Both the position numbers and the translations under genes were made by a program. Positions 2,666 to 30,179 of a stretch of DNA of 51,037 bases are shown in pieces (position 1 is the stretch's first letter; each line of letters begins with the position of its first letter). Source of the DNA: Candidatus Ruminimicrobiellum bubulum (GTDB lineage Bacteria > Elusimicrobiota > Endomicrobiia > Endomicrobiales > Endomicrobiaceae); assembly GCA_017651625.1 (NCBI GenBank), contig JAGCCP010000003.1, forward strand, positions 1 through 51,037. Direction: 5' to 3'. A model generated the notes under the pieces. That model ran no database searches. It worked only from the letters and a program-made list of their open reading frames with translations, and was not told where the DNA came from.

Positions 2666-4117
2666 TCAAATGTTTTTTACAGCGTCGTATAAAAACTTGT
2701 GCATTTCAACTAATGCAAGTGTATCTTGCTCGCAATATTTTAAAAGATTTTGTTTTGTTTCTTTAATTTTTTCGTCGTCGTATAAACCCATAGCCATATA
2801 AGCAAATGCAGATAATGCAACATCCCCTTCACCTATTTCCAATTCGTTATAATTCATTTGCGGTATCATAACAGGTAAAACTTTTTTAATTGATGTTCTG
2901 CCGTGAAATCTTTTATCGTAATAGTTTGTTCTGAGTATTTCTTCGAAATCTACAATTCTTTCTATTATTAATTCCAATTGTTCGGCAAACTCGGGATAAA
3001 GATCGGCAAGCTTATCTATTATTTGTTTTTCCGCAGAAGAATAGGTAATAATACTTCCTTGTGTTCCCAAAATTTCAATAAGTTTTTTTGCAATTTGTTT
3101 TCTGCAATCTTGTGTATGATCGGCAATATATTCAAAATGGTCAACAATATGCTCGATTTTATCACACTTATGTATTGAATATTGTGTTAAAACTTGAGTG
3201 TGCGGAGCAATATTGTTGTACAAAGGATATATCGTCATAACAGACTCAAAATCTAAATAATAACAAGGAAACACTATCTTATCAAGTTCAGTTTTTAAGT
3301 TAGGACTTATATAAATTTTATCGTTAATAACACAATCTTTTACAACTTTTTGCATCTGTGTCAGTTCAATATCTTCAGGCAAATTTTTAATATCGTATAT
3401 TTTATTTTCACATAACTTACTGAAAACAAGTTGTGAAAGTCTCGGCAAATCGAAAATATGATACTCTATTCCTTCTCCGGTACATTGTTTAAATAATGTA
3501 CAATTTTTGCACGGCATTTTAAGTTTTTTCTTTTTAGGTGCTTCGGAAAACAAAACATCTTTTACGGTATCTAATAAAATAGAATAATCTTCAGCTTTGG
3601 TAAACACATCGAAACTGCAATCCACTTTATTAAAAAGTTCTTCTATAGATTGTCCTAATCTAAAATCTTTTGACAACAAATATAAAGTTGCTTTAGATAT
3701 TGAAGGTATTGTTTTTGATGCAATTAAACTTATATACGCGGTATCAGATATGTATTTATGTTTCCATTTATTGCCCGACTTAACTTCTATTATTTCCCAC
3801 AGATTATTTCCGGTTCTATGCAAAATATCCGCTTTTGCAACAAAACCGTCGTATTCGAAAACAGGTTCAAAAATTGTTTTTACTGTTTTATCTTTGATTA
3901 AATCTTTTGTTTTTTGTAATGCTTCTTCGAATTTTCCGGAAACTTGTATCCCGTCGGGAAACAAAAGTTTTGCCATATCGTGAATTTTTTTTGCTTCCAT
4001 TATTAAAAAGTCGTCGGTCAAAGAATTATCTTTAGGAATAAGGCTTCTATACAAATGCCATGCATATACTGGACATTCCAAAGTTTTTAAAAAAAGATTT
4101 TTGTTTATTGATTTCAT
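2666..4117 (-). CDS. DUF2779 family predicted nuclease (PD-(D/E)XK + DEDD exonuclease-like)
   Basis: A protein of 483 aa. The N-terminal part looks like the Cas4/RecB nuclease fold: ADIL with Asp97, then EVKSG with Glu111 and Lys113. Cysteines at 15 (ECPVYAW) and at 203, 206 and 212 are spaced like a Cas4/AddB-type iron-sulfur cluster. The C-terminal DUF2779 part resembles a DEDD exonuclease: LDFES (Asp289, Glu291), IVDFEEIL (Asp390) and YCEQDTLALV (Asp465). The likely role is nucleic-acid cleavage, substrate unknown. The ATG at 4117 lacks a clear Shine-Dalgarno site and lies 19 bp after the PHP gene, so translation is probably coupled within the operon. There are no cas genes nearby. Confidence 0.75.
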   Translation of the reverse strand: MKSINKNLFLKTLECPVYAWHLYRSLIPKDNSLTDDFLIMEAKKIHDMAKLLFPDGIQVSGKFEEALQKTKDLIKDKTVKTIFEPVFEYDGFVAKADILHRTGNNLWEIIEVKSGNKWKHKYISDTAYISLIASKTIPSISKATLYLLSKDFRLGQSIEELFNKVDCSFDVFTKAEDYSILLDTVKDVLFSEAPKKKKLKMPCKNCTLFKQCTGEGIEYHIFDLPRLSQLVFSKLCENKIYDIKNLPEDIELTQMQKVVKDCVINDKIYISPNLKTELDKIVFPCYYLDFESVMTIYPLYNNIAPHTQVLTQYSIHKCDKIEHIVDHFEYIADHTQDCRKQIAKKLIEILGTQGSIITYSSAEKQIIDKLADLYPEFAEQLELIIERIVDFEEILRTNYYDKRFHGRTSIKKVLPVMIPQMNYNELEIGEGDVALSAFAYMAMGLYDDEKIKETKQNLLKYCEQDTLALVEMHKFLYDAVKNI

Positions 4118-4136
4118 AACTATATGGTTAATACAC

Positions 4137-5015
4137 TTACAGAAGTGTACTGTTTTTTTCTTCTATTTGTCTTTTTTTTGCTTCCAATGCTTCCAGAACG
4201 GTGTAAGGAACTTTCATTTTTCCGATTAAAGGAGTTGCATTTTTACCATAAGCTCCATGACAATCCGAACCGCCGGTTGCTATTAAATTCATTTCTTCGG
4301 CAATTGATATAAACTTCTTAACTATATGTTGCGGGTGACTGCTGTGCCAAGCTTCTATTCCCATAAGTCCGTCGTTAATAAGACCTTTAAAAATATTTTT
4401 GTTGCTGTAATGTCCGTAGTAAGGATGTGCCAATACGGGAATACCGCCTGCTCTTATAATAAGAGATATGGCATCTTTCGGAGATATATAGTGTTTCGGG
4501 ACATAAGCGGGTTTATCCAACCCTAAATATTTTTGAAAAGCTTCCGATATGGAAGAAACATAATTTTTTTCAAGCATTGCTTTGGCAAAATGTAATCTTC
4601 CTATAACTTTATCACCTACACCCGAAATTAATCCTTCGGGATCCAACTCTATATTTAATTGTTTTAATTTTTCGAATATATCTTTTGCTCTTTGAATTCT
4701 TACCTTTTTAAATACGGACAAAGCTTCATTAAAAGATTTTGACTTCCAGTTTACATAATATCCCAAAATATGCATTTCGGTTTTCGTTACATTATCCAAT
4801 TCGGCAGATAATTCTATACCGGATATAACTTCCATCCCGTATTTTTTACCGGCATCAACGGCCTCTTGTACACCGTCAACAGTATCATGATCGGTAATAC
4901 TTATCGCAGAAAGTCCAACCCTTGAAGCATACTCTACTACCTGCTCCGGTGTGAAAATTCCATCAGAATAATTGGTGTGTATATGTAAATCAACAAAAAA
5001 TTCTTTTTGAGACAT
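4137..5015 (-). CDS. PHP-domain phosphoesterase (TrpH/RNase AM-like)
   Basis: A metal-dependent phosphoesterase of 292 aa. All PHP motifs are present: DLHIHTNYSDG (His11, His13, Asp18), ITDHDTVDG (Asp42, His43, Asp44), GIELS (Glu68), LAHPYYGHY near 195 and GGSDCHG near 250. This set matches the TrpH/YciV group, which removes phosphate from nucleoside 3',5'-bisphosphates and trims short RNAs 5' to 3'; the exact substrate is inferred from the family. The ATG lies 2 nt after the phoH stop, and its GGAG ribosome site lies inside the phoH 3' end, so the genes are coupled. Confidence 0.85.
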   Translation of the reverse strand: MSQKEFFVDLHIHTNYSDGIFTPEQVVEYASRVGLSAISITDHDTVDGVQEAVDAGKKYGMEVISGIELSAELDNVTKTEMHILGYYVNWKSKSFNEALSVFKKVRIQRAKDIFEKLKQLNIELDPEGLISGVGDKVIGRLHFAKAMLEKNYVSSISEAFQKYLGLDKPAYVPKHYISPKDAISLIIRAGGIPVLAHPYYGHYSNKNIFKGLINDGLMGIEAWHSSHPQHIVKKFISIAEEMNLIATGGSDCHGAYGKNATPLIGKMKVPYTVLEALEAKKRQIEEKNSTLL

Positions 5016-5017
5016 TA

Positions 5018-6328
5018 TTATAACAACTCCGATGACAATGCAGCAAGAACACTTCTTTCACTCTTTGAGAACATCAAATGTCCGAATACAGACTGTCCTT
5101 TAAATCTGTCAACCAAATAAGTTAACCCGTTGGAAGATGCATCCAAATAAGGACTATCTATTTGATAAGGATCTCCGGTTAAAACTATTTTTGTTCCGTT
5201 ACCCGCCCTTGAAATAATTGTTTTTACTTCGTGCGGTGTTAAATTCTGAGCATCATCTATTATTATATATTGTTTAGGTAAGGATCTTCCTCTTATGTAT
5301 GTAAGAGAATCTACTTCTATTTGTCCCGACTCAAACAAATAATCGATCTTTTCATCTACTTTAGAATCTTCGTGACCTTTATCCATCAAGAATTCAAGGT
5401 TATCGTTTATTGCACCCATCCAAGAGGAAAGTTTTTCTTCTTTTGTTCCGGGCAAGAAACCGATATCTTTACCCATAGGAATTATAGGTCTTGCAATATA
5501 TAATCTTCTAAATTGTCTTTCTTCAACTGTTTTTTGAAGACCTGCAGCAAGTGCAAGTAAAGTTTTTCCCGCACCGGGTAAACCGATAAGAGTAACTAAC
5601 GAAATATCGTCACACAACAAAAGTTCAAAAGCAAATCTCTGTTCAATATTTAACGGTTTTAATCCCCAAGGCTGAGAATTTATATGGAATAAAGGCTGTA
5701 TAACTTTTTTATCAGCACAATATTTACCTAAAGCACTTTTTGATGTTCCGTTTTCATCTTTCAAATATACAAATTCATTTGCATAAAATTCCACATTTTT
5801 AGGAACATCTATTTTACCGTTTTTATAAAATTTATCTATTTTTTCAGGTGAAACTTGTAATTCTTTCCATCCTCTGTAAATTTCATCTATTTTAACTTTA
5901 GATTTTTCATAATCTTGTGTTACAATATCTAAAATTTCAGCTTTTATTCTTAAGTTTATATCTTTTGTTATAAATATAACATTTTCACCTTTTTGTTTAA
6001 GGTACAATGCTATCGACAATATTTGATGATCGGATTTGGAAACCGTAAACTCTTCCGGAAAATCTACTTTATGTATCATTTCTATAACAAGAGTTCCGCC
6101 GTTTTTTAAAGGAACACCTTTTGTTAATTTTCCTTTAGCTCTTAAATCATCCAATCTTCTGGAAATTAATCTTGCTCCTCTACCTCTTTCATCATTAAGT
6201 TTTTTGAAATTATCTAATTCTTCTATTACGGTTAACGGAATAACAACTTTATTATCTTTAAAAGCAAACATTGAGTCAGGGTCGTGCAACAAAACATTTG
6301 TATCTAATACAAAAGACTTTATGGCCAT
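5018..6328 (-). CDS. PhoH2-type PIN domain-ATPase protein
   Basis: A protein of 436 aa. The N-terminal PIN ribonuclease domain starts VLDTNVLL (Asp9) and continues with the conserved acidic EELDNFKK near residue 37. The C-terminal PhoH ATPase has Walker A GLPGAGKT near 247 and Walker B IIIDDAQN near 357, followed by LTGDPYQID. PhoH2 proteins couple RNA unwinding to PIN cleavage; this is known for the family and not shown here. The ATG has a strong AAGGGGGG site. It is the first gene of the phoH-PHP-DUF2779 operon, all three products of which look like nucleic-acid processing enzymes. Confidence 0.9.
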   Translation of the reverse strand: MAIKSFVLDTNVLLHDPDSMFAFKDNKVVIPLTVIEELDNFKKLNDERGRGARLISRRLDDLRAKGKLTKGVPLKNGGTLVIEMIHKVDFPEEFTVSKSDHQILSIALYLKQKGENVIFITKDINLRIKAEILDIVTQDYEKSKVKIDEIYRGWKELQVSPEKIDKFYKNGKIDVPKNVEFYANEFVYLKDENGTSKSALGKYCADKKVIQPLFHINSQPWGLKPLNIEQRFAFELLLCDDISLVTLIGLPGAGKTLLALAAGLQKTVEERQFRRLYIARPIIPMGKDIGFLPGTKEEKLSSWMGAINDNLEFLMDKGHEDSKVDEKIDYLFESGQIEVDSLTYIRGRSLPKQYIIIDDAQNLTPHEVKTIISRAGNGTKIVLTGDPYQIDSPYLDASSNGLTYLVDRFKGQSVFGHLMFSKSERSVLAALSSELL

Positions 6329-9424: not shown

Positions 9425-12400
9425 TTATGCGGCAGCAAGCATTGCTCTGCAACCTGTAATAAGATCATCTTTTTTCTCTAAGGTTACTTGTTTATTTTTA
9501 TAATCGTCGCCATATATCAATATTATTTCTATTATAGTATTTATTGCAACATCCCTTCTTGCACTTTTTTCAGAATCAACTATTTTCCTTTCTGCCATTA
9601 TCTTACCTACAATATCTTCTTTAGTTCCGCTCATTTCTCTTTCTTCTTTATCATCTCTGGATTTATACATAAAATTCGTCCCGTTTTTATCACTGTTATC
9701 AAGTTGTAACATCAACATATGTCCTAACAATTTCTCTAAATTCTTATCTTTTAAACCGAACTCTTTATTCTGTTTCGACAAGGCAGTTTTTGCCAAAATT
9801 CTTTCTTTGATTATTTCCGTAAGCGGACCCTCTTTTAGATTTTTGCTTCTGCGAATAGTATTTAATATTATTCCTATTTCACTGTTTTCATCTATATTCA
9901 TGAGAAGAGAGTTTAATTTTATTTGTATATCTTCTTTCCTATATTCCTGTAACGGTTCTGATAAATTTAATTCAGGAATTTTATTGTAATCTATATTGTA
10001 TATTATCCTTTCCATATCTTCCGAAGTAAGTTCTCCCAATTTAAAATTCATTTTAATTTTGCCTAAGAATAATGCTGCAAATTCTCTTTGAACGGTTTTA
10101 ATATTCCTTTGTTTAACAAAATGTTCTATTAAAACATCTACACCTATCATTAATGGTTTATCCGAAGTTATTATTTCTCTCTCTATACTATCAGGATTTG
10201 TTAATATTTCCTTTATTTCTATTTCGTCTCCAACACCATAATCTTTTATTCTTATGCCATTTTCATCTCTTATTATTTCTCCGGATATTCCCATAGCCTC
10301 ATAATCCTGCACATCTTCATTTGTTCTGTCTATTTTATCCAAATAGATTTCTATACCGTTTTGTCTTAAATCGGATATATATTCTACACTTAAATTTAAT
10401 TTTTTGAATTGTGATTCTGTTATAACTTTTCTCATTCTTCCTTTTTCCAATGCTGTTTTCAACTTATCTAACTCTGTTTCGCCCATACTTTCTAATCCGA
10501 TTATCGTCTTTTGTCCGAACATTATTCCCATTGCTCTGTTTATTTCTAAGCACGACAACATAAAATCTTTTTCCTCTTGTTCAGTTTTTCCATATAATTC
10601 CATAGCACCTATTTCCAATAAACCTTCATTCAAACCTATTCCTTCTCCGTTTCTTACTATTATTCCATCCGTTTCTATTTCTCCGGTTATAGAAAGTATG
10701 GATTTTGCTTCTTCTTTTATTTGTTCCGTTTCGTGTATTGCTTTGGCTGTCTTTAATCTGGGAATACCTTTAGCGCCATAAACTAAAGTTCTACCTACTT
10801 TTATTTTGTATATACTTACACCATCTACTTTTATTCCGGTATTTATTAATTCATACTTATCTTTCAATTGCTCTATATCTTCAATAATATAAATATCTAT
10901 TAAATTTGATTGTTCTGACGGTTCAGCAGCTCTTTCCAAAATATCTACTAATTGTTCTATATCCGTCGATTTAACATCTTTATAATTTACAGCTACACGT
11001 TGTGCAATTTTTGACTTTATTCTCATAACAGCAGTTGCTATCTTATCCAACCTCAAAACAGATACAATATTGAACAAGGAATTATCGAAGATACTGCTAA
11101 CTAATTTAACCATATCAGCCTTAGATATTTTTAATTTTTGAGGATCCGGTAAAGCATCTTCTTTAAATTCGGGATCAAGATCCGAATACAAGATTATTTT
11201 ATCAGGATTGATATTATATCTTTCCATTAAAACATTTTTATGTTTTTGACTTACGACTATAAAATAGTTCGAATCGGCATGTTTTTTGGAAAATTCTTCA
11301 GAACGAAAACTTTCTATAAGATCCGGATCGACATCAAAATATTCAAGTATTTTTTTGTAATCTTCTCCCAAAGTAAGCATTGCATCAGTACTCTTTTCGG
11401 ACATAGGTAACAATCCTGCAGAAACCACGGAAATATTATCCACACCCAACTTTGATAATCTGTCTTCAAACAACAAATGAGAAACAGCGCTTCTGTTTAT
11501 ATTCGCCGTACATATAAAACATACCTGCCTTCTGTTATTTTCTTCAATATCTGATCTTAATTTTGATACTGCATCGGTGTTTTCTGTACTATTTTGTTTT
11601 TTGGAATATTCAAGTTCTCTCAACACTTCTACCGTCTTAACCATTCCGTCAAAAGACAATGAAAAGGTATTTTTGAAAAATTTTATTAATCCTTTACTTT
11701 CTAGCTTTGTGACTAAATTATTTTTTTTCATCATAAAATGATTAGGATTCGAAAGAAGTCTTTTCATTGTAGAAAGGAATCTCGTTTCATCTTCAATAGA
11801 ACCATCATCAGTAAAATATTTATTAAAGACATCTCTGCTTTGTATATTCAAACAATCGTATGTTCCGAAAACAAATACAACATGTTCCCATAATTCAGGA
11901 TGCTGTTGTATATATTCAAGTTCTTCTCTTGTTTTAAACGAATAATCATGTGAAAGTAAATTTCTCGGCAAGAAGAAAACTATTTTTTTGTTATATTCCA
12001 AAGTTAATGCTCTTACTTCATCCATATACTCTTCTGTTCTCTTTGCGGAATATTCCTTTCCGTAAAAATATTCATATCCTCTTTCCCAAGAAACCAAATC
12101 GTTTCTTTCGCAAATACCGCGAACTAAATTTACTTTTCTTTTCGATCCGTCAAAAATAGGAACATAACTTAATCCTAAAGCAAAGCCGAAACTATTTTCA
12201 ACAAATTTCATTTCATTTTCAAAAGATTGTCTGTGCATAAAATGGATATATCCACTTGGTCCTCTATACTTTTCAATTCCTTCATTATTTCTAAAATCTT
12301 TTCTCTTTAATTTACCAAGATATTTAACAAGATCGTAAATAGAAATAAATTGTGCACCGTTAAGTCTTGCCTGTTCTACAAAATCCGACGGGATTTCACT

Positions 12401-15400
12401 ATCTTTTATTTCTTTACTTAAATTTATCGGCTTTAAAATATCAGACAATGGATTATAGAACAATTTTACTTTTTCGGAAGTATCCATCATCGAGTCTACA
12501 TTGTCCATTTGAAGCAAATAATCTTTGTTATTTGTTAATACGGCAAAGAAATTCCATAAGAAATGAATTACGGCTCCCGAAACAACTGTAGATACTATAC
12601 CTATTGTAGAAGTTATTATGGTAATAATAAGAGGCGACATAAACACAAATTTCGATATAAAAGAAATATTATCGTATAATGCAGAGGATGTGACTCCCAT
12701 AGAAATTAGTCCTATACCTAAAGCCATCATTCTCAGTGCCGTAACGGTTAACCCCATTGATACCGATAATTTACTATGCCCTGACAAGAATTTTTTCGAG
12801 AAGAAAGAGTATCTTTCAATTTTTACACCTTTCAGTAAACCTTTGAGAGTGTATCTGTAATTGCTTGCTTTTTCATCTATAATTGCCATATCTTCAAAAG
12901 TAAGTTCTTTTTCGGTTTTACCGGTCTCCTTCAAATATTCTTTTTTATATTTTTCAAATCCCAATCTATATAATTCCTTAACCGTAGAATCACTTTGTAA
13001 TGCAACATCTGTAATCGAAACATTCTTTTCGGATTTTTTATAATCTTGTTCCAAATGATATAACTCCATATCTACTTTTTCTCTTAAAGTTACATCTGCT
13101 TTTCTAAATTTACTTTCGCCCACATTGTATTCTTCATTGAAATCGTATTCTCTTATCGGATTAAGAGTCATTATTTCAGTACTCTTACTGTCACCATTGA
13201 TCATAAGATGTGCGGATATTGCTAAAGTTTCTTTATCTTTATCAAGCTCTAATTCTTCAGATTTTGGTTTGTTGTAAACAGAAAAATCTCGTATATTCTC
13301 GTTTGTATCTAATTTAAGATATAATGCTACGGGTTGTTCAACTTTTCCCAAACTTCCGCGAAGTAAAGCATTCTTCAAAATTTCCTCTAAGAAGAAATCT
13401 ATACCATAATCCGTATATTGTGAATAATCTACAGAACTCTTGAAAATATCTGATACCTGGAATCTGTTTGAAATTAAAACTGATATTTTTTTATAAATAT
13501 CTAACAACTGACTAGGTGTTAAATCCGAAGTTTTAAAACCTTCTTTAAAGAAATGAAATACTATCAATTTTTTGTTTAATGCAGCATTTTTGATAAGATG
13601 ACAAATTCTATCAACATCATCATCGAGATATACATCAACAAAACCTTCTGTTCCCGTATCAGCATTTATATCCTTTATTTCTTGATCAGAAAAATTAACA
13701 TTATTTTCTTGTGATCCTTTTGGTGTTCCGTCAAATGCCAAATTACTGATTGTCACACCATCTTTAAACACTATACCGAAGACATCTCCGTTTTCATCAT
13801 AATTAACACTTTCTATACCATATAGAGAATACTCATCTTTAGATATTTCTTTTTTACCTTCTTCATTAAGTAAAATTTGATCACCTACGACATACAAAAC
13901 ATGTGTTTGTTCTGAATTTATATTTACAACTATATCTTGATTACCAAGTATTTTGGTATTTATTCCTACTTTACTTGACTCTATTATCTGATTTACAGGA
14001 ATAACTTTAACTTTTGTCTTCGCCTTTTTGCTTTTTGCGGTTCTTTGATTTTTATCTAACAATTCCATTAAATCATCTACAGACATAGGATTTTCCGTAT
14101 CAAAACCTTTAAAATTATCAATTAAATCCGTAAGTTTTAAATTTTTTATCGATGGATCTCTTCTCTTAAAAGCAATACCATGCAAAGCGGATATAAATTC
14201 GTGAGAAAACTTTGTTACTGTTTCGGTAGTAACATCCATACCTTGAACTCTATCATCTCTCGGGAAAGAATTATTTTTTATATTTTTTGTGGTTATTACA
14301 GGTATTGCAATCATGCCATCTTCCATATCTCTTGATGATGGGAACCAATATCTTGAGAAATGATGATGGACAATTTCACTACCGCCTGTTTTTACTTGTA
14401 TTTTTACTCTGTTTATATCGTATATATCAAAACCTCTTCCCGTATTGTCGGAAGGTAATTCCGGTCTTATTATTATTGGTCCTGCTCGTTTATCCGGAAT
14501 TATTCCTGCTACCAAAGTGTTTATCAAATATATTTCACCAAAATAACCTCTCAAATCCGTACATGTTGCTTCATAAAGTCTTTTTGAATATCTTTGTTCT
14601 ATATAAGATAACAAGTCTCCTAAAGTTGCATTGGGGCCTAAAGCCTTATCATAAACTCTCATAAATGTTTCTATTGCCATAGCAAACAATATCGGATGTT
14701 CTTTTAAATTTTCCATCAAACTCTTTTTAGGATCTATTGTAGTTCCGGTAATCTGTGAATTTTTGTTCTTTAATAAAGAAACAACGTAATCCGGCAATTC
14801 TTTACTAAAATCTATTCCTTCTACTTGCTCTTTAGATAAACCGGATCTTAAAAGAACATCTTTTATCTGTTGTTGATTTATTTCTAAAGAGCTATCAAAA
14901 GAATCTTTAGACTGTGCCAACTTTGTAAAACTTTTTATTATATCATCTAACGAATATCCCTTAGGCTGACGAATATCTTTATTGTTTACATGAGTATTTG
15001 TAGAAGAACCTGATGTTGTTTTTTTCGATTTGCTTGCTTTCTTCTTTTCTTTTTTGTTTTTCTTTTTAGATTTAGATGATTTTATTTTTTTAGAACTTGT
15101 TTTTGCCTTAGGATAACCATCATCTTCTTCATCAACATCAACATCTACATCTTCGTCTGTTTCCTTAACAACATTATCACCTTCTATCACTTCAATTTGA
15201 GAAACATATTCTTCATCTGAAATACTGCCGGATGTTGTTTCTGTTTCCGATTGAGAATCATCTGTTATTTGTTCTTCTTGTATTACTTCCAATTCCGAAT
15301 TATTATCAAGAGTTGTTACAGGTCTTACTTGAACGATGTAAATGATGTCATCTTTTATTAAAAATTCTATATCTACGGGAACCCCTTCAACTCGTTCCAA

Positions 15401-18400
15401 CCATTGCATTATTTTGGTTAATTTTAAAACCATATCGGAAGTTAAAGTTTCTTTTCCGGTATAGTTGCCGTCTATTTTTTCACCGCTTTCAAGATCAATT
15501 ACAAAAGAGTACGGAGTTTTTCTTCCGGAAACAATATCTTCACCGGTTCCGTTTACAACTTGTATGATTCCGTTTCCTTCAGAATTCTCACTCATTATAA
15601 TTCCTGCTTTATCTGATTCAACCCATTCTTCAATAAGAACTGCAGGTTTTATAATATTTCCGGAATTCATCATGTAATCTATTGCCCTTTGAGAGAAGAA
15701 AGATGATAACACATCTCTTATCGCACGAGGAATATATTCTACTTCGACTTCCCCATAACTTTCCGCTATTCCGGCCGCTGAATATGATTTCCCGTCTTCC
15801 CCTACTCCGGACGATCTTACTATGGATAATTTATTTTTGAGAGATTTTAGATTCTTTTTACCGATATATTCTTTTATTCTGCTGTTACTTATACCATTTA
15901 TTAAATCTATTATTTGAGATACAATTTCATCAAGTTTTTGTAAATCCTGTTCCGTATTATTTTTATTTTTTACAATAGATTCAAATTGTGAATATAAAGT
16001 CTTATATTCTTCGCCCAATAAATCTTCTAAAATCGTGTACTCTATTGCAATGCCGTTAGGAATTCTTACATTATCTATACCTGTTTCTCGTTTTAATTGT
16101 TCTACGGCTAAATATAATTTGGATTGATTTGCGGATTTTGTGCCTACTTTTGAAATATCAAGAGATTCTTTTTCTCCGAATCTATATACGTTACTGCTAC
16201 CGGAATGAGGTAAAAACCAGTTAAATTTTAATTCTATTTGATCAATAATTCTTTGTATTTTATTCGATGAAAGAACAACATTTAGACCTTGTTCATTATA
16301 ATCGTACAGTATGTCATTAATCCATGAATTATCGGCAGACTGATAATATATGTATTCGATAATTTTATCTATTACAGTGCTATTTTTATATCTGTTAATG
16401 AATTCCTTTACTTTCTCTGCATCTTGATTATCTATATATTCCTGTAATTCAAACAAAATATTTCCAACTTTTCCTTTTTTAAACAATTTACTTTCAAACA
16501 ACATCATTTTATTGTTTTGAGTATCTATTAACACTATATCATTTGGCTGCAGCTCTATTTCGCTTTCTTGCAGCTCTCTTGATTCCAATATTCCGCCTTT
16601 ATTAGTTTCCCCTTTAGGTTGATAAATTTTTATTCTCATTTTACCGTCAACTATTCGGGAATCGTTTACTATCATAGCTGTTTTTCCGTATTCTCTCAAA
16701 ACTATTCCTGCATGACTGGAATAAGAACCGCCCGTAAATAACGACATATCATATTGAACAGCATCCGTAACATTTTCAGGACTTGCATATTTATCGATAA
16801 ACAGACCTCCGTTATCTGCTTCGGCATTTACTGTTCCTATCGCACTTTTCAATTCTTTTGAACTTGATATTATTGTTCCATATGCTGTAGGAGTTGTCGT
16901 TTTTGCTATACTTTCTTTTAATCTGTTTCTGTAAGTTAAAAGTTCACCACTTGTAAAATTTTCGACGACATTTATAACATAATCTTCATTTTCTAATATT
17001 GATTTTAATTGTTTGAAATTTAAGCCTATTCTTCCTGTTTTAGTATTTATGCTACTTGGGAACCCAACTAGTTCACTTGAGCTATATCTTATTATTCCAT
17101 TTTTATCTGTTAGTGTAGTTACCGCTAAAAATTCTCCTTTATTTTTGCTTCCAAGTCTTCCGTCGGTTAACTTCATATATCCTGTTTTTACTACATATCC
17201 GCCTATTTGTCCGATAGTTCTAAATTGTAAATCTCGTTCAGGAATTTGTGAAATTATTGCACCTTGATTTAACATATCGGTTTCTTCTATCTGACCCGGT
17301 TCTTTATCGAGTATACTTTCCAAATTTTCTTTCATCATCGATATAGGATCATATTTGTAGTTTCTTTCCAGTTCACCTTTTTCATTTAGCTTTAAATATC
17401 CGATAGCAAAAGACTGTTCTACAGGTTTATTTATGTATTCATCTATCGTATTTTGACCAAGAGTTCTTACTTTTCTTTTAAATAAAAATCCTGCTTTAAT
17501 TTTTGAAAGCATGCTTGGTTCTGATTGAGGTACCGTCGGTAACTGTAAATAATTTAAAATTTTATTAAAAAATTTTACATCATTAACTCTTGTTTGAACA
17601 ATATTATTATCCGTAGATACAAAAAAGCATTTACGATAAAGATCCATTATTCCCATACTTGCGGTTTCTATTACTTGAATCGGAATATTTTCCCTGTATA
17701 AAGATGCAGCATTACTTAAAAGAATCATGGCTTTTTGTGCCATTTCACAAATATCGGTATCACCTGTTAACCCGAAATCTTTACTTACGTTTGAAACTAA
17801 ATTATATTCACCGTTATATAAATTTGTTAAAAAGCCGAAATTACTTAATATTCGTCTTAATGTTAAAATTCTTGATCTGCTTTGAGGTGTTTTTTCCGCT
17901 TCGGTAAAATCTATAAATATATTTTCGTTTTCTCTGTTAAAATCAATTAAAACTCTTGCGGAATGATCACCCAATAACCCGTTCCACAAGAAAATATTAT
18001 CCTTAATGAATATTTGAGAATTATCATAGGTCGAAAAATCCGGATTTTCAGCCAACAAAATCAATAATTTTTTAATATTCGGATGTATTTCGTTTTCAGA
18101 TAAATTGTATGCTTTGATAGTCCTGTCATCTTTTGTAACAAAAACATTTTGAACTTTGCTCATAGATAAACTTGCAGTACTTCTTATATTCTTAACAAAG
18201 TCCATATTTGCCTGTTGATGAATTCTGTTAATAAGCCTATGTATCGTAGTAATATCACCAACATATTTGCCTCTGCCGGTAGAAAAAGATTTTTGTTCGG
18301 TTATATTTGTTCTACCTTCTCTTATATCATCCAAAATATCGTTTAACACTCTTTTGAAATAAGATGCATCAGAAGAATTAAAAGAGGATAAACAACTTAT

Positions 18401-21400
18401 CATTTGGTTTATATGAGTTACAACGTCCTCAAATTGAGAATCGAAAGCAGTTACATTTGTAAATTTATTCAACACATACATATTCTCATCGAGAAGTTTC
18501 ATGTATGAATCAAATTTTCTTAAAACATCTTTTAGCCCTTGTTTTTCTATCTCGTTTCTCGACATAAAATAGGTTGGTTCAAGACTGTTTATTTTATGTC
18601 TCAAAATTTTTGAAGGAATAAGCCGCAATATTTTACTGAAAGAATATCTGTCACTATCAAAATAAACATTCGGAGATTGTTTAGAAAGATCAAAATTATA
18701 TTTTGTTGCAAAATCTTGTATCGTTATCTCCCCGGCACGCATTTTTTTGAAATAAGATACTTGTTCTTTCAAAGCCGTAAAGTTATCAACAATCTGTTTA
18801 GATTCAAATAATATACTTTCATATTCAGATAACAAATCTATATTCTCAAGTATTGATTCAAATTCTTGAGGACTTAATAAAAGAACTATCATTTTATCTT
18901 TATTAGCCCTGATATTGTTGTTTTGTATATCTGTAAGTAATTGTTGCATATCCAATATCAATTCATTTGAAAGTAATTGAGTAATATATTTAGCTTTCTC
19001 ATATTTCTCCTTATCAGACTCATCAATAGTATTCAATTCCTTAATTTTTTCTCTTATTTTTCCGTAAAGAACAAGATGAGAATCTCTGGTATTATTTGCA
19101 AAAATATTATGACTTATTGTCTTTAATAAATCACTGTTTATATCAACATACTTTATCAATGAGTCGAGAATACCTAATCCAACATTACTCTTATTGATAA
19201 TATTTTTTACCAACTTTATATGCTGTTCGTTTTTTAAATTCAATTTATCAAATATCATACCGACAGCAACGGGATTAAGATAATCTTCTTTTTCCACAAT
19301 ATTTGCAAACATTTTAAATTCTAAAGAATCTTGTAAATTCAAATTCGGCAATAAAGCTTCCAGACTTTGTTTCTTGTGTAAAACACTAAATCTTGAAAGT
19401 TCCATCAAAAATTTTTCTAAGTGTTTTTTATCATTTTCTTTAAAATCAAACTGAGATATAAGTTTAGAAAGTTCATTGTCCATTACATCCGAAAACAATT
19501 CTAAAAGACTTAACTGCTTAAAATCATTAACATCTATTTTTTCTATAATCTTGTTGTTAAGTCTTATATCTTGAAAACTTCTATTATAAGTTTTAGCCTT
19601 TAAGAAATCCGTTAAAATCTTTATATGGTTTTCATTATGGAAATCTAATTTTTCAACCAACATAAAAGCAGTTTCTATGTTAATACCGAAAGAATGTTCA
19701 TCCAACAAAAGATTTCTTATAAAAGATAATTGGTTAGGATTGTTAAAATCTGCTTTCTGAATCAATGTATTAATTATTGTTCTTCTGTTATCCGTAGCCA
19801 GTTTCATTTGTTCAGCGAAAATATTTATTAAATATAAACTTTGATTTATATCATTCAAATCTATTTTATTCACAAAATCCGTAGCTTCTTTGGCAGATAA
19901 AATATTTTCATCCAAAATTTCTGCCAATTTTTCTTGTTCTTGATCTTCTTTTAAATCTATATTATCTCTTTCCGATAAATATTGAGCAATTGTAGGAATA
20001 TCTTTATTTTCTCGAGAAGCTAATTTAGCCCAGAAAGCATTTTCTTCTCTCTCTTCTTCAAAAATTCGGTTAAATAATGAATAGAAATCGAAGGAGGTAT
20101 GCAATAACATTCCAACAACAAAAGACAAAACAAATCCGAATATATTGGAAGAAAACAGTATTGAATACACATATGGAACAGATAACAATATCGTAGGTAA
20201 AATTCTACTGTGAGTTTCTTCATCATAATTTATTTTTTGTTCAAAATCGAAATCTCTTTTTAATTCTTCCGATGGGAATACATTAAATAATGTCGCCTTT
20301 AAAATATCCAAGGTAGTCCATTTGAAACCGTCTTGTTGCGACATATTTTGTTTTATCCATAAAGTTACATTATGTGCTTTTACAAACTGTACTTGAAGAA
20401 TAGCAAACAATATTAAAAGTACCGGAGAAACAAACATAGACATAAACGGCAACAATGTCAAACTCATCGGGAGAGCTTTAAAAAATATTTCTTCCCATAT
20501 CGGTGCGGTTTTATTTAAAAATTTAAAAAACGGATTAAAATCTTTTAATGGCTCAAAAATCGACAATTCAAAAAAGCTTATATGATTTTTCCATTCTCTG
20601 TTCGGATACAAAAGACGATTAACTTTTTCTTTAAATGTTTCTTTACCTTTTGAAATATCTTCTATATCGGCTATCTCCGATATTTGTTCTGTTCCTTCTT
20701 CAATAAGTCTTTTAATAAAATCACTATATACAAACAATGTAGGATTTGAATAACCTACTGTTGCCATCGCACTAAAGATATCGTTGATGGTTATTTTGTC
20801 CGGATTTTTGTCTGCTATTGAAGAAATTAATCCATTCCATTCATTACTCATTACCGTAAGTTGACCGTTTTCTCTATAGTACGTAGAATAACCATATAAT
20901 GTCTCATGACCTGCAGATGCCCAAATTGTAGGAAATTGTCTATTTACAACTTTACCTTGTCTTTCCAATTTATCAAATTCTTTGTTTAAATGATCATATA
21001 CATTATTTGCAAAATACCAAGAATAACATGAACTTAAATTAATTGTTATTTTATTTAAATCCATTCCGTTGTTATATGCTTGAATTAATGCTTTCGCAAG
21101 TTCCGAACTCGATATATCAGAATCAAATCCTACGGATAAAGAATCTTCAAATCCATGTCCGTCGAAAGAAATAAATACGGTTTCTTCCGATTTCAATTCG
21201 GATATTTGTCTTAAAAATTCTTTTTTTGCTTCTATTGCAGGGACAATATCGGAATTGATAAGAGAAACTTTATCTGAGTCGGACATATTTAATATTTCCA
21301 ATAATTTCTTGAGTCCGGCTTCTTCAAAAGATTGGTCATAACTCGATACTGATGCAAGAGAAATAACTCTGGTATTTCTGTCAAATACGGTTCTGTCTTT

Positions 21401-24400
21401 TTGTTCTTCCAATGCGGATATATATATTTCGGTTGCTATCCTTACAATATAATCAAAAACAGTACTATTATAATTCATCTTATTTGTATCGATAATACCG
21501 CTAATAAACCTTGATATTGATAAAGCCATGTAATATTTTTGAATTGTTGTTGTTTTTTCATTAAAGAAATCTTGCAAATGTTTGTCTATAACAATATTAA
21601 AAGTATTGTTAAAAAATATTCTTAATCCCAACATATCGTTTTCGGTTTCGATTCTACCTATTTTTAACTTTAATATTTCTCTCATTAAACTTGTCATTTG
21701 AATTAAATCTTCTTTTGTCTTTATAAATTCAACAAAATTAACATTATAATTTTCTTTATCGGCTTTTAAGGTTCTCATCTCGACGCTGACAAAATCTTTG
21801 ATTAAAGGTTCTATTTCTTTTTCATCGTAATTATATTCTTTAAAAATTTTACTTATTGTTGATATATCACTTAATATTTTATTCTTTTGTTTTAATGATA
21901 AATTAGTATCGGTTAAAACTTTTTCATCTGCATACGAACCTCTCGGTAATACTTTACCTTGCTGAATAGAAGTTTGTCTCTTTAGAGTTGTTATCGGTCT
22001 TACTTGAACAATATAGATGATATCATCTTTTATTAAAAATTCTATGTCTACAGGCATTCCTTCGACTTGTTCAAGCCATTCCATTATTTTTGTTAATTGT
22101 TCAAGTTTTTCTTTTGTTAATGTCTTTGTATTTGTATAATCTCCGTCTATTTTTGCTCCGTTTTGTATATCTATGGTAAAAGTATATGGCGTTATTCTTC
22201 CGGAAACTATATCTTCACCTTGTCCGTTTATAACCTGTATTATTCTATTTCCATCATTATCTTCGCTCATCATAATTCCTGCTTTATCGGCATCTATCCA
22301 TTCTTCTATCAATACCGCAGGTTTTATAACACTTGAAGATTTCGACATATACTCTGCTGCTCTTCTGGAGAAGAAAGATAACAACGTATCTTTTACGGCT
22401 TTATTAATATTTTCATATTGTATCGAGCCATAACTTTCAGCTATACCGGCTGCAGAATATTCTTGAGAGTCTTCACCAACACCGGACGATCTTACTATCA
22501 CCTTCTTACTTCTAAATAATTCTAAATTCTCTTTTCCTATATATTCTGCTATTTCTTCTTCAGAAAGATTTTCTACTACAATTCTCAGTTCAGACATTAT
22601 ATCTTGAACATTTATAAACTTTTCTTCTTCGGTATAGAATTCATCTTCAACAGTTGCTTTCAATTCTTCGTACAATTCCACATATTTTTCACCAAGCAAT
22701 TTTTCTAAAATATCAAAACCTATAACTACTCCATCGGGGACCGCAACATTTTTTATTCCGGTTTCTTTCTTTAATTGTTCCAACAATAAAAATAATTTCG
22801 ATTGATTTGCGGATTTTGTTCCTACAATTGAAGAATCAAGAGACTGTTTTTCTCCGAATCTGTATACTGAATTTATACCGGTATGTTTAATAAAATCGGT
22901 TATTTGTAAAACTTTTTTTACAATTATTCTAGGTGTTATTACAGAAGGTTCTTTGTTGTAAGTTTCTGTTACATCCAACAAATCTTCAAGCCAAGAATTG
23001 TCTGCAGATTGATAGTATATATATTCTATAATTCTATCTATCATACTACTTTTTTTATATCTATTAATAAATTCTTTTACTTTATCTGCATCTTGTTTAT
23101 CTATATATTTTTGTAATTCAAATAAAATATTTCCCGTTCTTCCTTTTTTAAACAATTTACCTTCAAATAATGTTATTTTGCTATTTTGAGTGTCTATTAA
23201 TACTATATCGTTAGGTTCTAATTCTATTTCCCTTTCTTCCATCTCCAATGTTTCCAAATTTCCGTCACGAATGACCTTGCCTTTCGGTTGATAAAATTTT
23301 ATTTTCATCTTTCCATCGGTCATTTGAGAATTATTTACTATCATCGCCGTCTTTTTATACTCTCTCAACACTATACCTGCATGACTGGAATATGAACCGC
23401 CGGTAAACAAAGATAAATCATATTTAGATGCTTCGGTAACATTCTCAGGACTTGCATAATTATCAACATATATACCGAATGCATTTCTCTTTTTATACAT
23501 TCTTGCAAATATTGTATTTTTTTGTTTTTCAGGCAAAGAAATTATGGTTCCATATGCAATAGGAGAAATATTTCCTGTTATTTCTTCCGATAATTTAGTT
23601 CTATAATTTAAAATTTCCAAACTTGTTAATTCTTCGGGATAAACTACTTCATAGCCTTCGGTTATAAGAATTTGTTCCAATTGCTGTAAATTTAGATTTA
23701 TTCTTCCGGATTTATTATTCATTGTTTCCGGATAACCTACAAGCTCACCGGATGTATATCTTATAATCCCATTCTTATCGGTTAATGTTGTTATCGCTAA
23801 AAATTCTCCTTTTGTATTTTCATTTAATCTACCGTTATTTAACTTCATATAGCCTGTCTTTACCACATAATCCCCTATCTGTCCGACAGTTCTAAAATTC
23901 ATATCCTGTTCAGATAGCTGAGATATTATTGCTCCCTGATTTAACATTTCGATTTCAATCTTATTTCCCGACTCACTCTCAAGTATTTTTTTTACTTTTG
24001 CCGTCATATCCGCAATAGGATTGTATTCTTTGTTCCTTTCAAGTTTGCCTTTTTCGTTTATTCTTAAATATCCCGTAGCAAAAGCTTGTTCTATAGGCTT
24101 ATTTATGTATTCGTCTATCGTGTTTTGACCATATGTCTTTATAAATCCTAATCTAAAAGATCCCACTTTTAAAAATGTCCAAAAACCTTTTTCTTTTCTC
24201 GGTATTAAAGGTAAATCTAAAGATTTTAAAATTCTGTTAAGATTTTTTCTGCTGTTAAATGTAGTTCTAACAAAATTTCCCCTTATAAAACTCAGAGCAT
24301 AGTATCTTGAATATATATCCATTATAGCTTGTTTTGCTACATTAACATTTTGTTTAATTTGAAAATCACTATGTATAAGATTATTTAAAGAAGCCGCATT

Positions 24401-27400
24401 ATTGAAAAGAATTACCGCTTGTTTTGCCAAGTTATTAAAATCCGTATCTTTGGATAATCCCGTATCCTTATCGAGTCTGGCAACTATACCTACAGGTAAT
24501 CTTCTACTTTCAAAATCTTGAAGAGATTGTGTAACTCTGAAGCCCTTACTTTCTAAAATATCCGTCAACATTTTAATTCTGATTGTACTTCCGTCATCTA
24601 TCGCACCTTCATGAAAATCTACAAGTATAGATTTAGATTCTTCATTAAAATCTATAAGAATTCTAACTGAATGTGCACCTAATTTTGCTACCCATAAGAA
24701 TATGTTATCTTTTATGAAGATAGGTGTATCGGTATTTGTCGAAAAATCAGGATTTTCGGCTAAATCTGATAACAATGCGATTATTTGAGGATTTAGTTTT
24801 TCCGAAGATAAATTATAGGCCGACATCAAATTATTATTTTTAGAAATCAAAATATTATGTCCCGCCTGTGTGTAGTTGCCTATTGAACCCATTGTTTCTG
24901 TTAAAAATGAAAAGTTTGCCTGTTGATGTATTCTATTAACAAGTGTATTTATTGTAGTTATACCATCCGCAAATTTTCCTTCGGATTCATATTCTATAAG
25001 TTTTTTTTGGTCTTCAATAGTAGTTTGACCTGTTTTTACTTTGTCCAATATATCTTTAAGTGCTGCCCTAAAATAACCGACATTATGAATATTTATCTGT
25101 TCCAAACAATCTATCATAGTATATATGTGTTGTACCACATCATCGAATTGTGATGAAAAATTATTCACTTGCGCAAACTTACTTAAAATGTATAAGTTTT
25201 CATCTAAAAGTTTCATATATTCATCAAATTTTTTAATAATACCGTCAAGATTTTCCGTATCTACGGTATCTTTTGTCATGATATACGTCGGATTATGTTG
25301 TATAGGTTTTAATCCTCTTCCGGAAAGGAAGTTGAGTACACCGGTAAAAGAATATCTTCTGCTATCGAAAAACACATTAGGTGTTTGTTTTATCACCGTC
25401 AACCCTTTTTCTTTTCCAAATTCTTCCAATGTCACATTATCTTCGGAAGAATCAACAACTTTTTTCCTTCTCGAATAAATCATTCTGGGAGTTTTTGATT
25501 CCATTTTTTCACAAAACTCAACATCTCTCGACAATTTATCGAAATTTGCTTTTAACTCGGAATCAAACAAATCTTGTTTTAAAGCCAAATCTTGTGTAAA
25601 GTTATAAATATTTTCAAAAATCGGATCAGTTCCGTTTTCATTAACTCTCAGAACAACATGACCATTAACAATTTTCAAATATTTATTTTGGTGAGCAATC
25701 AACCTGTTATGTATTAAATCTATTAATTTGGTTAAAGCATATTTACCCTGATATGTATTTGCGGGAAGTTTTAAAATGTTAGTTTCAAAATATTTTTCCG
25801 CATTTCTGTATGAATCATATTTCGACACTATTACGTCTATAAGAATTTTAAATACAATATTATATCTTGCATCGTTAAGATCAATATTTTGCTCCACCAA
25901 ATAATTAAAAATAGTATCTGTATTGCTTGAATTTTGTTTAGATAGAATTTCCAATAATTTGATATGTTCGTTATTGTTAAGATCTAAATTTTGAATTATC
26001 AACATAATATTTGTATCACTTAACATATTTGTTTTGCTCGATAGAAAATCGGAGAGAATTTTTAATGTATCTTTATCATCAAAATTCATTTCCGATACAA
26101 GTTTAGAAAATAAGCTTTGGAAAGAAAGTAAATATCCGGCTTTTAATGCGGATTGTAAGATCAAATTCAAATGTTTTATATTTTTTAAATCAGACTTAGA
26201 TACAATTTGGTTCAATATATCATCGTTTATAAGTTGCAAGTCATATAATAAATTAAATTGATCTTCGTCACTAAAATCCACTTTTTCAACCACTGTGGAA
26301 CTAAGTTTAGCATTGTATTGATGTTGAGATAGTAAAGTTTTTATATCCTGTAAAACATTCTTATCTTTAAAATCCAAGTTATTTATCTGTTCATAATTTA
26401 TACTTTCGCCAAATATGCTCATCTTATTTTTCAAAATCATATTCAAAAATTTGTGTACAAACATACCAACGATAGTAGAAGCAATAATTACAACTGAAAT
26501 TTTAGGCATTAAAACGAAATATAAAAGATATGGAACAACCAACAATATCGTGGGCAAATATCTTTGTCTTGTTTGATTTATTGTTTCTGTTTCTTCTGCA
26601 AACTCTTTGAATTTTTCTTTTTGGCCTTCAGGAAAAATATTAAATAAAGTTGCTTTTAAAATATCAATTGTAGACCAATCGAGGTTATTTTGTTCTATCC
26701 ACGAACTTATATTATGAGCCCTTACAAATTGTATTTGGAAAACAAAAAATATTAGTGCACTTATAGCTGACATTCCGGGAACAAGAGATAAACATACAGG
26801 AAGTGTTCTAAATACCAGCTCTTCCCAAATATGAGGTATTTTGGATAATGTCTTGAAAAACATATTTCTGTCGGACAAAGGAGCAAATATCGAGAAATAT
26901 TCGATAATTTTTCTATTTGATCTTAGCCAACTTGCAGCTTGTTCATCGTAAGAAGTTTTTTTATCACTTGAAACTCTATAAAATTTACCTTTAAAATTAT
27001 CATCTACTTCAAAAGTTCTGTAAGGATTTTGGTTCATTAAAACATTGCTTTTGTGACGACCGCCTAATAATGCCAACTTCATTCTTATAATTCTCATCTG
27101 ACCGGATTCATCTATAGGATTATTTCTGTTATATATTCTAAGAGTTTTTATTTCATTCTCTTCATCCTTGTCCATGTAGACAAATATGGGTTTATCTAGT
27201 CCTGTATTACCATGCATGAAAGAATTTTCCAATATTTCCAGTAAGAAGAAATGAATATCATAATCCAAATAATCGGCATTTTCGGGAAGAGAAACAAAAT
27301 TATTCTTGTTCAAAGGTTTATCGGTATATATTTTGAAGAACATATCCCTTATAACATGGTATAATTTTTGTTGTTCCTCTCTATCAAGACTGGCAATATC

Positions 27401-29629: not shown

Positions 29630-29651
29630 TTTTTTCTCCGTAGCAAATAAA

Positions 29652-29690
29652 AAAGACATACATCATTTTTACATGATGTATGCCTTTTTA
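29652..29690. terminator. bidirectional hairpin terminator before the giant gene
   Basis: CATACATCAT (29657-29666) pairs with ATGATGTATG (29673-29682) around a 6-nt loop, with a T-run on both strands. The small membrane protein gene stops inside the loop (TAA at 29669-29671). On the minus strand only 27 nt separate the stem from the giant-gene ATG, so any giant-gene promoter lies upstream, within the small gene, or the hairpin acts as an attenuator. Confidence 0.7.
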
Positions 29691-30142
29691 TATCGTTGAT
29701 AGATAACTATTTTACCAAAGGTAAATAGTAATCCCAAATATTTTAATATAAACAAGAATACAAACCCAAAGAAAAACAGCCTCAGTTTGGCATTACCCTC
29801 GACAGAAATCGATTTTAATACCGACACTGCTAATACAAGTTTAACATAATTGAAAAAATTGTCCGTATATATTCTTCTATCCGTTTTATCTATATCGAAA
29901 AACATTTTATTGTTTTGTGTCGGTGCCAATAAAATCTCTACATCTTTTGCAATATTATTGCATACCGTTTTTACTACATTTTTCGCATGATAGAACAAAT
30001 CACACTCTATTTCTATAATTTCAGAAATAGATGTCTTATTTCCCATCTCCGAACAAAATTTATCAAATAAATTTATAAAAGATAAATCTATCGTCGAGAA
30101 AAGAATAAAAAATGATAAAGCACATTTTAAAATACTTTTCAT
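29669..30142 (-). CDS. small membrane protein, unknown function
   Basis: A protein of 157 aa. An N-terminal signal-like segment (MKSILKCALSFFILFS) is followed by a soluble middle and two hydrophobic stretches (VKLVLAVSVL and LFFFGFVFLFILKYLGLLF), ending Lys-rich. I chose the ATG at 30142. It lies only 8 bp after a near-consensus -10 box, so its message is probably leaderless; a GTG six codons upstream overlaps the -10 box and cannot be used from that promoter. The gene lies directly upstream of the giant gene in the same direction, so a partner role is possible. No family is recognised. Confidence 0.65.
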   Translation of the reverse strand: MKSILKCALSFFILFSTIDLSFINLFDKFCSEMGNKTSISEIIEIECDLFYHAKNVVKTVCNNIAKDVEILLAPTQNNKMFFDIDKTDRRIYTDNFFNYVKLVLAVSVLKSISVEGNAKLRLFFFGFVFLFILKYLGLLFTFGKIVIYQRYKKAYIM

Positions 30143-30150
30143 ACATTTTA

Positions 30151-30179
30151 AGTATAGCACTTGAAAGCATTTTTATCAA
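30151..30179 (-). promoter_or_regulatory. sigma70-type promoter of the small membrane protein
   Basis: TTGATA (30174-30179), 17 bp, TATACT (30151-30156) on the minus strand. The predicted transcription start falls at or just before the ATG at 30142. It may also drive the giant gene by read-through. Confidence 0.75.

Follow-up and report, generated by a model that had tools for sequence, protein, structure and literature searches.

Locus and module architecture

The stretch analysed here, referred to as the window, is a complete 51-kb contig (JAGCCP010000003.1, 51,037 nucleotides) of the 1.88-Mb genome of Candidatus Ruminimicrobiellum bubulum, a member of the Endomicrobiaceae in the phylum Elusimicrobiota. 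Its minus strand carries a giant open reading frame (ORF) of 6,744 residues (9425-29659), within which lie two copies of a module that joins an unknown block, a phosphohistidine swivel domain and an ATP-grasp domain. Module 1 covers residues ~1460-2565 and module 2 residues ~3700-4790; each has a block of ~575 residues, a swivel of ~130, a linker of ~100 and an ATP-grasp domain of ~300. The modules are 54% identical across ~1,110 residues, unknown block included, in agreement with an earlier note on this DNA that had described the same block ahead of each of two swivel/ATP-grasp pairs. The note had placed the pairs at 15310-24000. Their motifs do lie there, but most of block 1, up to ~25276, falls outside this range, and neither the one ORF that contains both pairs nor its export-like start and phosphatase-like domain were visible to the note. 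A second giant of 4,923 residues, on contig C2 of the same genome, carries a further pair of modules, arranged alike.

Catalytic domains

In both window copies the swivel motif GGSYSSHAG (23401-23375 and 16732-16706, minus strand) is followed by VRSSGVGED (22495-22469 and 15820-15794) and IVQVRPI/V (22012-21992 and 15337-15317) of the ATP-grasp domain, which Pfam PPDK_N recognizes in each module (Table 1). Motif positions, PPDK_N matches and domain map all give the order swivel then ATP-grasp that the earlier note had read. The lack of a phosphoenolpyruvate (PEP)/pyruvate TIM barrel also holds. PEP-utilizers_C (PF02896) has no match in the giant in a genome search whose control was positive in 14/14; its matches are confined to two other ORFs (C29, C54), a 910-residue PPDK and a 589-residue ORF that is probably enzyme I. 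A TIM barrel concealed in the block was rejected on the same result. The genome searches gave a further PPDK_N match in an 884-residue ORF (G000:C25:11059-12186) with no PF00391 or PF02896 match.

A profile search of the PDB identifies rifampin phosphotransferase (RPH) and PEP synthases as the top matches, down to 3.9e-63. The swivel and ATP-grasp pair was modeled, as the note had proposed, within an AlphaFold2 model of module 1 (mean predicted local distance difference test, pLDDT, 75; predicted template modeling score, pTM, 0.58). Model residues 802-1103 (ATP-grasp) superimpose onto RPH (5hv1) with Z = 28.2 (rmsd 2.9, 281 residues aligned), and residues 569-706 (swivel) onto the PPDK carrier domain (2fm4) with Z = 11.3 (rmsd 2.7, 113 aligned). 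By profile and model, the ATP-grasp is predicted to be of the RPH/PEP-synthase type and the swivel of the PPDK type.

Loss of ATP ligands, which the note had considered damaging to its proposal, was looked for in an alignment of 26 modules (A6), where PPDK_N matches 26/26 and PF00391 24/26 at E<=1. The ligand columns are kept: none of the 26 modules deviates in the columns for His, Lys, Arg and Glu-Asp, and the Asp-Glu/Gln-Arg set is present in 24, the others being L058, which ends early, and L056, which has Glu in place of Asp. In the sequence alignment with RPH, VRSS lies opposite VRSS and DIE...VQVRP opposite DIE...VQSRP. The module Lys is paired with RPH Lys22 by profile alignment alone; changes of Lys22 or Arg117 abolish resistance, and His825 is named as catalytic, in the available part of PMC4844700. 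With a PPDK-type ATP-grasp that retains its ATP ligands and a swivel that carries the His, the modules probably fall into the PPDK-PEPS-RPH superfamily.

Family distribution, coupling of His and ATP-grasp, and selection

A profile of the block matches 47/340 Elusimicrobiota genomes. The Endomicrobiaceae matches are ORFs of 598 to 8,068 residues, many on short contigs, and another family (f21) has compact members of 1,744 and 1,758 residues, the latter in L082. Outside the phylum, the search comprised one narrow scan of named genomes, plasmids and viral contigs, with two narrow patterns. Among named genomes it returned 18 loci, all from Elusimicrobia/Endomicrobia, the best being Ca. Ruminimicrobiellum ovillum (84% identity with one of the second giant's modules). 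The block was not found on plasmids with one relative's block as the query, and none of 159 pattern matches on viral contigs was confirmed. A role in anti-phage defence was dropped, the PADLOC result being a single weak match (0.005). The modules are best read as a family of their own, found here in Elusimicrobiota.

The domain order was not created by tandem duplication, because it recurs in L048, L050, L058, L061 and L097, proteins for which the analysis turned up a single module. The first swivel is preceded by an ATP-grasp domain only in L052, the start of which is cut off.

Retention of the swivel His was compared with the presence of an ATP-grasp domain within 600 residues downstream, over 60 swivel rows. 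Such a domain follows in 51 rows, and the His is kept in 50 of these (45/46 without identical rows); only L088, which is split between two ORFs and whose ATP-grasp match is weak, departs from this. Four of the nine remaining rows come from genes that run off their contigs (L032 twice, L055, L059), with the His present in the three that cover it. The last five (L085, L086, L087, L092, L093) come from complete proteins that lack an ATP-grasp domain, and the His is missing from all of them; their starts are export-like, and they form a natural series of dead dikinases. His and ATP-grasp stand or fall together, as is expected if the ATP-grasp domain charges the His.

The orthologue in congener G003 has 6,758 residues and is 78% identical to the giant. 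Against it, the ratio of nonsynonymous to synonymous substitution (dN/dS, Nei-Gojobori; dS 0.77 overall) is 0.17 for the whole giant, 0.08 and 0.11 for the ATP-grasp domains, 0.11 and 0.12 for the swivels and 0.12 and 0.13 for the blocks. The N-terminal domain (residues 45-545) scores 0.068, the C-terminus 0.09 and the phosphatase-like domain described below (residues 6036-6200) 0.037, the lowest among 14 segments, as against 0.27 for residues 2564-3699 and 0.40 for a Lys-rich linker. The giant is under purifying selection, strongest in its enzyme-like parts and at both ends.

These results bear on whether the modules could be catalytically dead, serving as binding or structural repeats of a surface giant. 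The five members in which His and ATP-grasp are both gone would suit such a role, as would an export-like start with no obvious source of ATP, but the invariance of the catalytic columns in 24-26 of 26 modules, the joint retention or loss of His and ATP-grasp and the low dN/dS of the ATP-grasp domains make it quite unlikely. As judged from sequence and model, the modules are probably working dikinases, given the conservation of their catalytic residues, the purifying selection and the shared fate of His and ATP-grasp domain.

Phosphatase domains in the same chain

Near its C-terminus the giant has a low-molecular-weight (LMW) protein-tyrosine-phosphatase-like domain, which scores above the PF01451 cut-off and carries the C-x5-R-S loop that marks the family; its presumed active Cys is residue 6050. 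A two-sequence profile detects an LMW domain in 6 of the 14 complete ORFs that have both the swivel His and an ATP-grasp domain (window, G003, L048, L082, L083, L089), L058 being counted in the 14 though it ends inside its ATP-grasp domain; the same profile finds none in the second giant and none in the seven degenerate ORFs. The domain is also present in partial L054, L084, L098 and L099. Pfam was run individually on five of these proteins and matches the domain in the window (Table 1), L082 (1.6e-25), L048 (1.5e-13), L084 (1e-24) and, as five stretches, L089 (5.1e-101). Each of 11 LMW copies from seven proteins has the C-x5-R-S loop. They have no fixed place in the chain and may come ahead of the block, between two modules, in the gap from swivel to ATP-grasp, immediately behind the ATP-grasp or ~1,260 residues beyond it. 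Among the matches listed in a phylum-wide PF01451 search, seven are in ORFs longer than 1,000 residues, and all seven ORFs also carry the block.

Two of these loci show further features. L089:1744-11085 encodes a 3,114-residue predicted dikinase protein with five tandem LMW domains at its C-terminus, directly followed by a second such ORF. At L083:1-1830, an RHS-repeat protein with a Tlde1 domain is encoded ~3 kb from the compact dikinase gene.

Export-like start

A hydrophobic, export-like segment opens every one of the 20 members whose N-terminus is complete. For the N-complete Endomicrobiaceae ORFs, a hydrophobic 17-mer (mean of at least 1.5) occurs in the first 60 residues in 8/8, compared with 25/108 other ORFs at the same loci (17/91 without other such segments); the eight N-termini are homologous and not independent cases. 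N-complete ORFs of other families have the segment (1.56 or more) within 110 residues in 12/12, a count made without controls. L082, L083 and both L089 ORFs, which keep His and ATP-grasp, look like exported soluble proteins, since they contain no hydrophobic segment beyond the start. Short ORFs with hydrophobic stretches lie immediately upstream of both giants (window 29669-30160, minus strand; L011:38-595, plus strand) and have no similarity to each other (best E 1.1).

The unknown block

The note had called the block beta-rich; the prediction is instead alpha+beta, with a helical bundle and two alpha/beta domains. A model of most of the block by itself (module 1 residues 100-572; mean pLDDT 78, pTM 0.49) resembles no PDB fold convincingly: the best Foldseek E is 0.028 and the best VIA comparison has Z = 6.5 (rmsd 3.8, 118 aligned), both in the range of unrelated folds, and the matches span model residues 16-209 only, the second half of the model being barely covered. 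On these scores, and with that coverage, no support emerges for a carbohydrate- or rifampin-binding fold. The first half of the block may resemble the C-terminal domain of bacterial 'PEP/pyruvate-binding domain' proteins. Lower VIA rows include Spa15 (5.8), DR_1245 (5.1), 3cxj (4.8), 2plg (4.8) and YbjN (4.0), which we take to share a type III secretion chaperone/YbjN-like fold, as a lead only. Block residues invariant in the 26 modules include N116, H119, Q120, H204 and R235 (module 1 numbering), candidates for an acceptor site. From its position, the block is presumed to hold the acceptor.

Comparison with known dikinases

RPH has the closest ATP-grasp domain by sequence and model, a swivel His and matching ATP-site residues. 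It runs from ATP-grasp through the rifampin-binding domain to a His at the C-terminal end (available part of PMC4844700), an order that the modules do not have: theirs is block, His, ATP-grasp. Over the part covered, the block model does not match the rifampin-binding domain convincingly. Because the His is at the opposite end in RPH, the module would resemble a circular permutation of that enzyme. PPDK and PEP synthase are alike in both catalytic domains, but the modules lack their C-terminal PEP/pyruvate TIM barrel and reverse their order. The ATP-grasp also aligns with HpeI of the HpeHI/CreHI/PpsAB group (9goj; Z = 21.1, rmsd 5.5, 275 aligned), the members of which differ in having two subunits and in acting in the catabolism of phenolics, according to the part of PMC12167813 available.

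Given how close the ATP-grasp is to that of RPH, one could suppose a small-molecule dikinase which, like RPH or HpeHI, activates or inactivates a low-molecular-weight compound. We regard this as unlikely: no convincing rifampin-binding-domain match was obtained for the block (its second half barely covered), and a giant with an export-like start and an LMW fusion would be an unusual setting for a detoxifying kinase.

Plant and algal GWD (alpha-glucan, water dikinase) and PWD (phosphoglucan, water dikinase) have, like the giant, a swivel His followed by a PPDK-type ATP-grasp domain and no PEP/pyruvate barrel. In GWD, the swivel precedes the ATP-grasp. The giant differs in its N-terminal block, in being a bacterial, export-like giant and in having an LMW phosphatase in the chain; no starch-binding family was detected, and PF22973 was unmatched with an uninformative control. 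What would place the modules with GWD is their predicted domain order alone. His992 of GWD is essential, and high-resolution GWD structures are missing (PMC12892837, available part).

The branching enzyme (GlgB) that the note had reported upstream is real (37272-39188), with seven ORFs between it and the giant; the link to the giant, which the note had offered as a guess, finds no support. Its closeness says little, because congeners G003 and G010 share the neighborhood to either side of the giant. This contig has the only branching-enzyme match in the genome, which leaves the second giant, on C2, without such a neighbor. In G007, GlgB lies on another contig than the module ORFs and may or may not be linked to them. 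CBM20 was not found in the genome, with the control positive in only 1/14; no carbohydrate-binding family is among the giant's Pfam matches at E<=0.1, CBM45 not having been searched by itself. PF22973, the GWD phosphohistidine family, gave no match with 0 control genomes positive, and is not among the 25 families listed for the 26 modules (E<=1). This otherwise well conserved neighborhood includes one variable member, a 1,467-residue ORF at 40553-44956 (minus strand), with 83% and 62% identity among the congeners.

Rumen ciliates store amylopectin. Ruminimicrobiellum is a rumen genus within which 16S genes from Isotricha suspensions fall (PMC11257099, available part); together with the shared His-then-ATP-grasp order and the branching enzyme in the window, this could point to a true GWD analogue, whose block binds glycogen or host amylopectin and whose module phosphorylates glucose units. 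We consider such an enzyme very unlikely. Besides the missing CBM and PF22973 matches and the general synteny around GlgB, the block has no convincing fold match over the part covered, and an export-like start is ill-suited to cytoplasmic glycogen. The earlier note's proposal of a GWD-type dikinase with a third substrate probably stands as to order, His, ATP ligands, missing TIM barrel and shared block; for the glucan link we see no support.

Other features of the giant

Coordinates are collected in Table 1. Between the two modules lies a legumain/caspase-like stretch (Pfam C13) with DGHG and SSC. Two segments are presumably CPBP/Rce1-like, on the strength of their EExxF motif; a Rce1-like Pfam match (0.0015, below cut-off) occurs in relative L048 only. 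By eye, residues ~770-870 and ~5400-5480 resemble the N-box of GHKL/histidine-kinase-type ATPases, for which the giant has no Pfam match at E<=0.1.

Table 1. Features of the giant ORF in the window
Feature	Residues	Position	Strand	Basis or remark
Giant ORF, carrier of all parts listed		9425..29659	-	6,744 aa
N-terminal hydrophobic segment after Lys/Arg-rich stretch (export signal or anchor)	23-41	29537..29593	-	hydrophobicity
N-terminal domain, family unnamed, common to second giant and other Endomicrobiaceae giants	1-545	28025..29659	-	sequence comparison
CPBP/Rce1-like segment, EELVFR	925-1110	26330..26887	-	presumed motif, hydrophobic segments
Module 1 unknown block (helical bundle and two alpha/beta domains)	1462-2032	23564..25276	-	domain map, model
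Module 1 phosphohistidine swivel domain	2036-2164	23168..23554	-	motif, model, domain map
Module 1 presumed catalytic His	2093	23381-23383	-	
Module 1 ATP-grasp domain	2266-2563	21971..22864	-	PPDK_N 4.1e-27, model, ligand columns
Legumain/caspase-like stretch	2823-2887	20999..21193	-	PF01650 3e-4, 20.9 bits, below cut-off 22.8
Second CPBP/Rce1-like segment, EEIFFK	3040-3215	20015..20542	-	presumed motif, hydrophobic segments
Module 2 unknown block	3700-4257	16889..18562	-	module identity, domain map
Module 2 phosphohistidine swivel domain	4260-4387	16499..16882	-	motif, domain map
Module 2 presumed catalytic His	4316	16712-16714	-	
Module 2 ATP-grasp domain	4492-4788	15296..16186	-	PPDK_N 9.7e-23, ligand columns
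LMW protein-tyrosine-phosphatase-like domain, C-x5-R-S loop	6046-6179	11123..11524	-	PF01451 1.2e-5, 25.9 bits vs cut-off 23.2

Proposed function

We favor, with modest confidence, the view that each copy is a complete dikinase module in GWD order, of a family of its own, exported and acting on a protein or surface polymer. We infer the activity, the localization and the role of the block, and take the beta-phosphate chemistry from knowledge of the family. ATP would be bound by the C-terminal ATP-grasp domain; the swivel His would take the beta-phosphate, the gamma-phosphate leaving as inorganic phosphate and AMP remaining; and the swivel would then swing and deliver the phosphate to whatever acceptor the block ahead of it binds. 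The acceptor is perhaps a protein or a surface polymer. Given the export-like start and the LMW domains in relatives, the likeliest role is phosphorylation of a target outside the producer's cytoplasm or in a partner cell, which in many members could be reversed through the LMW domains.

Several observations weigh against this assignment. Both window swivels fall short of PF00391 in the genome search and were assigned via paralogues, motif and model. The placement of the domains relative to each other in the model is not reliable, because the pTM is low. No LMW domain is detected by the two-sequence profile in 8/14 complete members with His and ATP-grasp, the second giant included. In the close genus g8 no match occurs among the genomes listed (18 and 15 in two overlapping lists), so some near relatives can do without the family. 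The export signal was judged from hydrophobicity and by eye, not with a dedicated predictor, and hydrophobic segments also occur elsewhere in the window giant, so that individual modules could lie on either side of the membrane. Extracytoplasmic ATP is scarce, which fits badly with an exported ATP-dependent enzyme. The export-like start, with no obvious supply of ATP to go with it, is the finding that surprises most.

A more specific form of the proposal, which we regard as doubtful, is that these proteins are exported kinase-phosphatases. PEP-synthase-type dikinase chemistry in GWD order would mark targets outside the producer at the expense of ATP from a partner, host or prey, and the LMW phosphatase of the same chain would reverse the mark.

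The window giant resembles the giant ORFs of Omnitrophota and Elusimicrobiota in its great length and in coming from the same part of the tree; such ORFs are common and poorly characterized, according to the available parts of PMC10066038, PMC12057145 and PMC11573180. The words 'dikinase' and 'phosphoenolpyruvate' are absent from the main text of PMC10066038, as are 'phosphoenolpyruvate' and 'ppdk' from the part of PMC11573180 available. A keyword-limited search of the open-access literature turned up a paper on bacterial phosphoproteomics, judging by its abstract, and no publication on dikinases that are exported or fused to LMW domains.

What is new here is the block in 47/340 Elusimicrobiota genomes, the export-like starts and the LMW domains in the same chain. 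To our knowledge, dikinases of the PPDK-PEPS-RPH superfamily have been thought of as cytoplasmic or plastid enzymes. In the giants described here, the GWD-type order of His then ATP-grasp is joined to another, presumed acceptor block, and the largely uncharacterized giants of the Elusimicrobiota gain a concrete, testable predicted enzyme activity.

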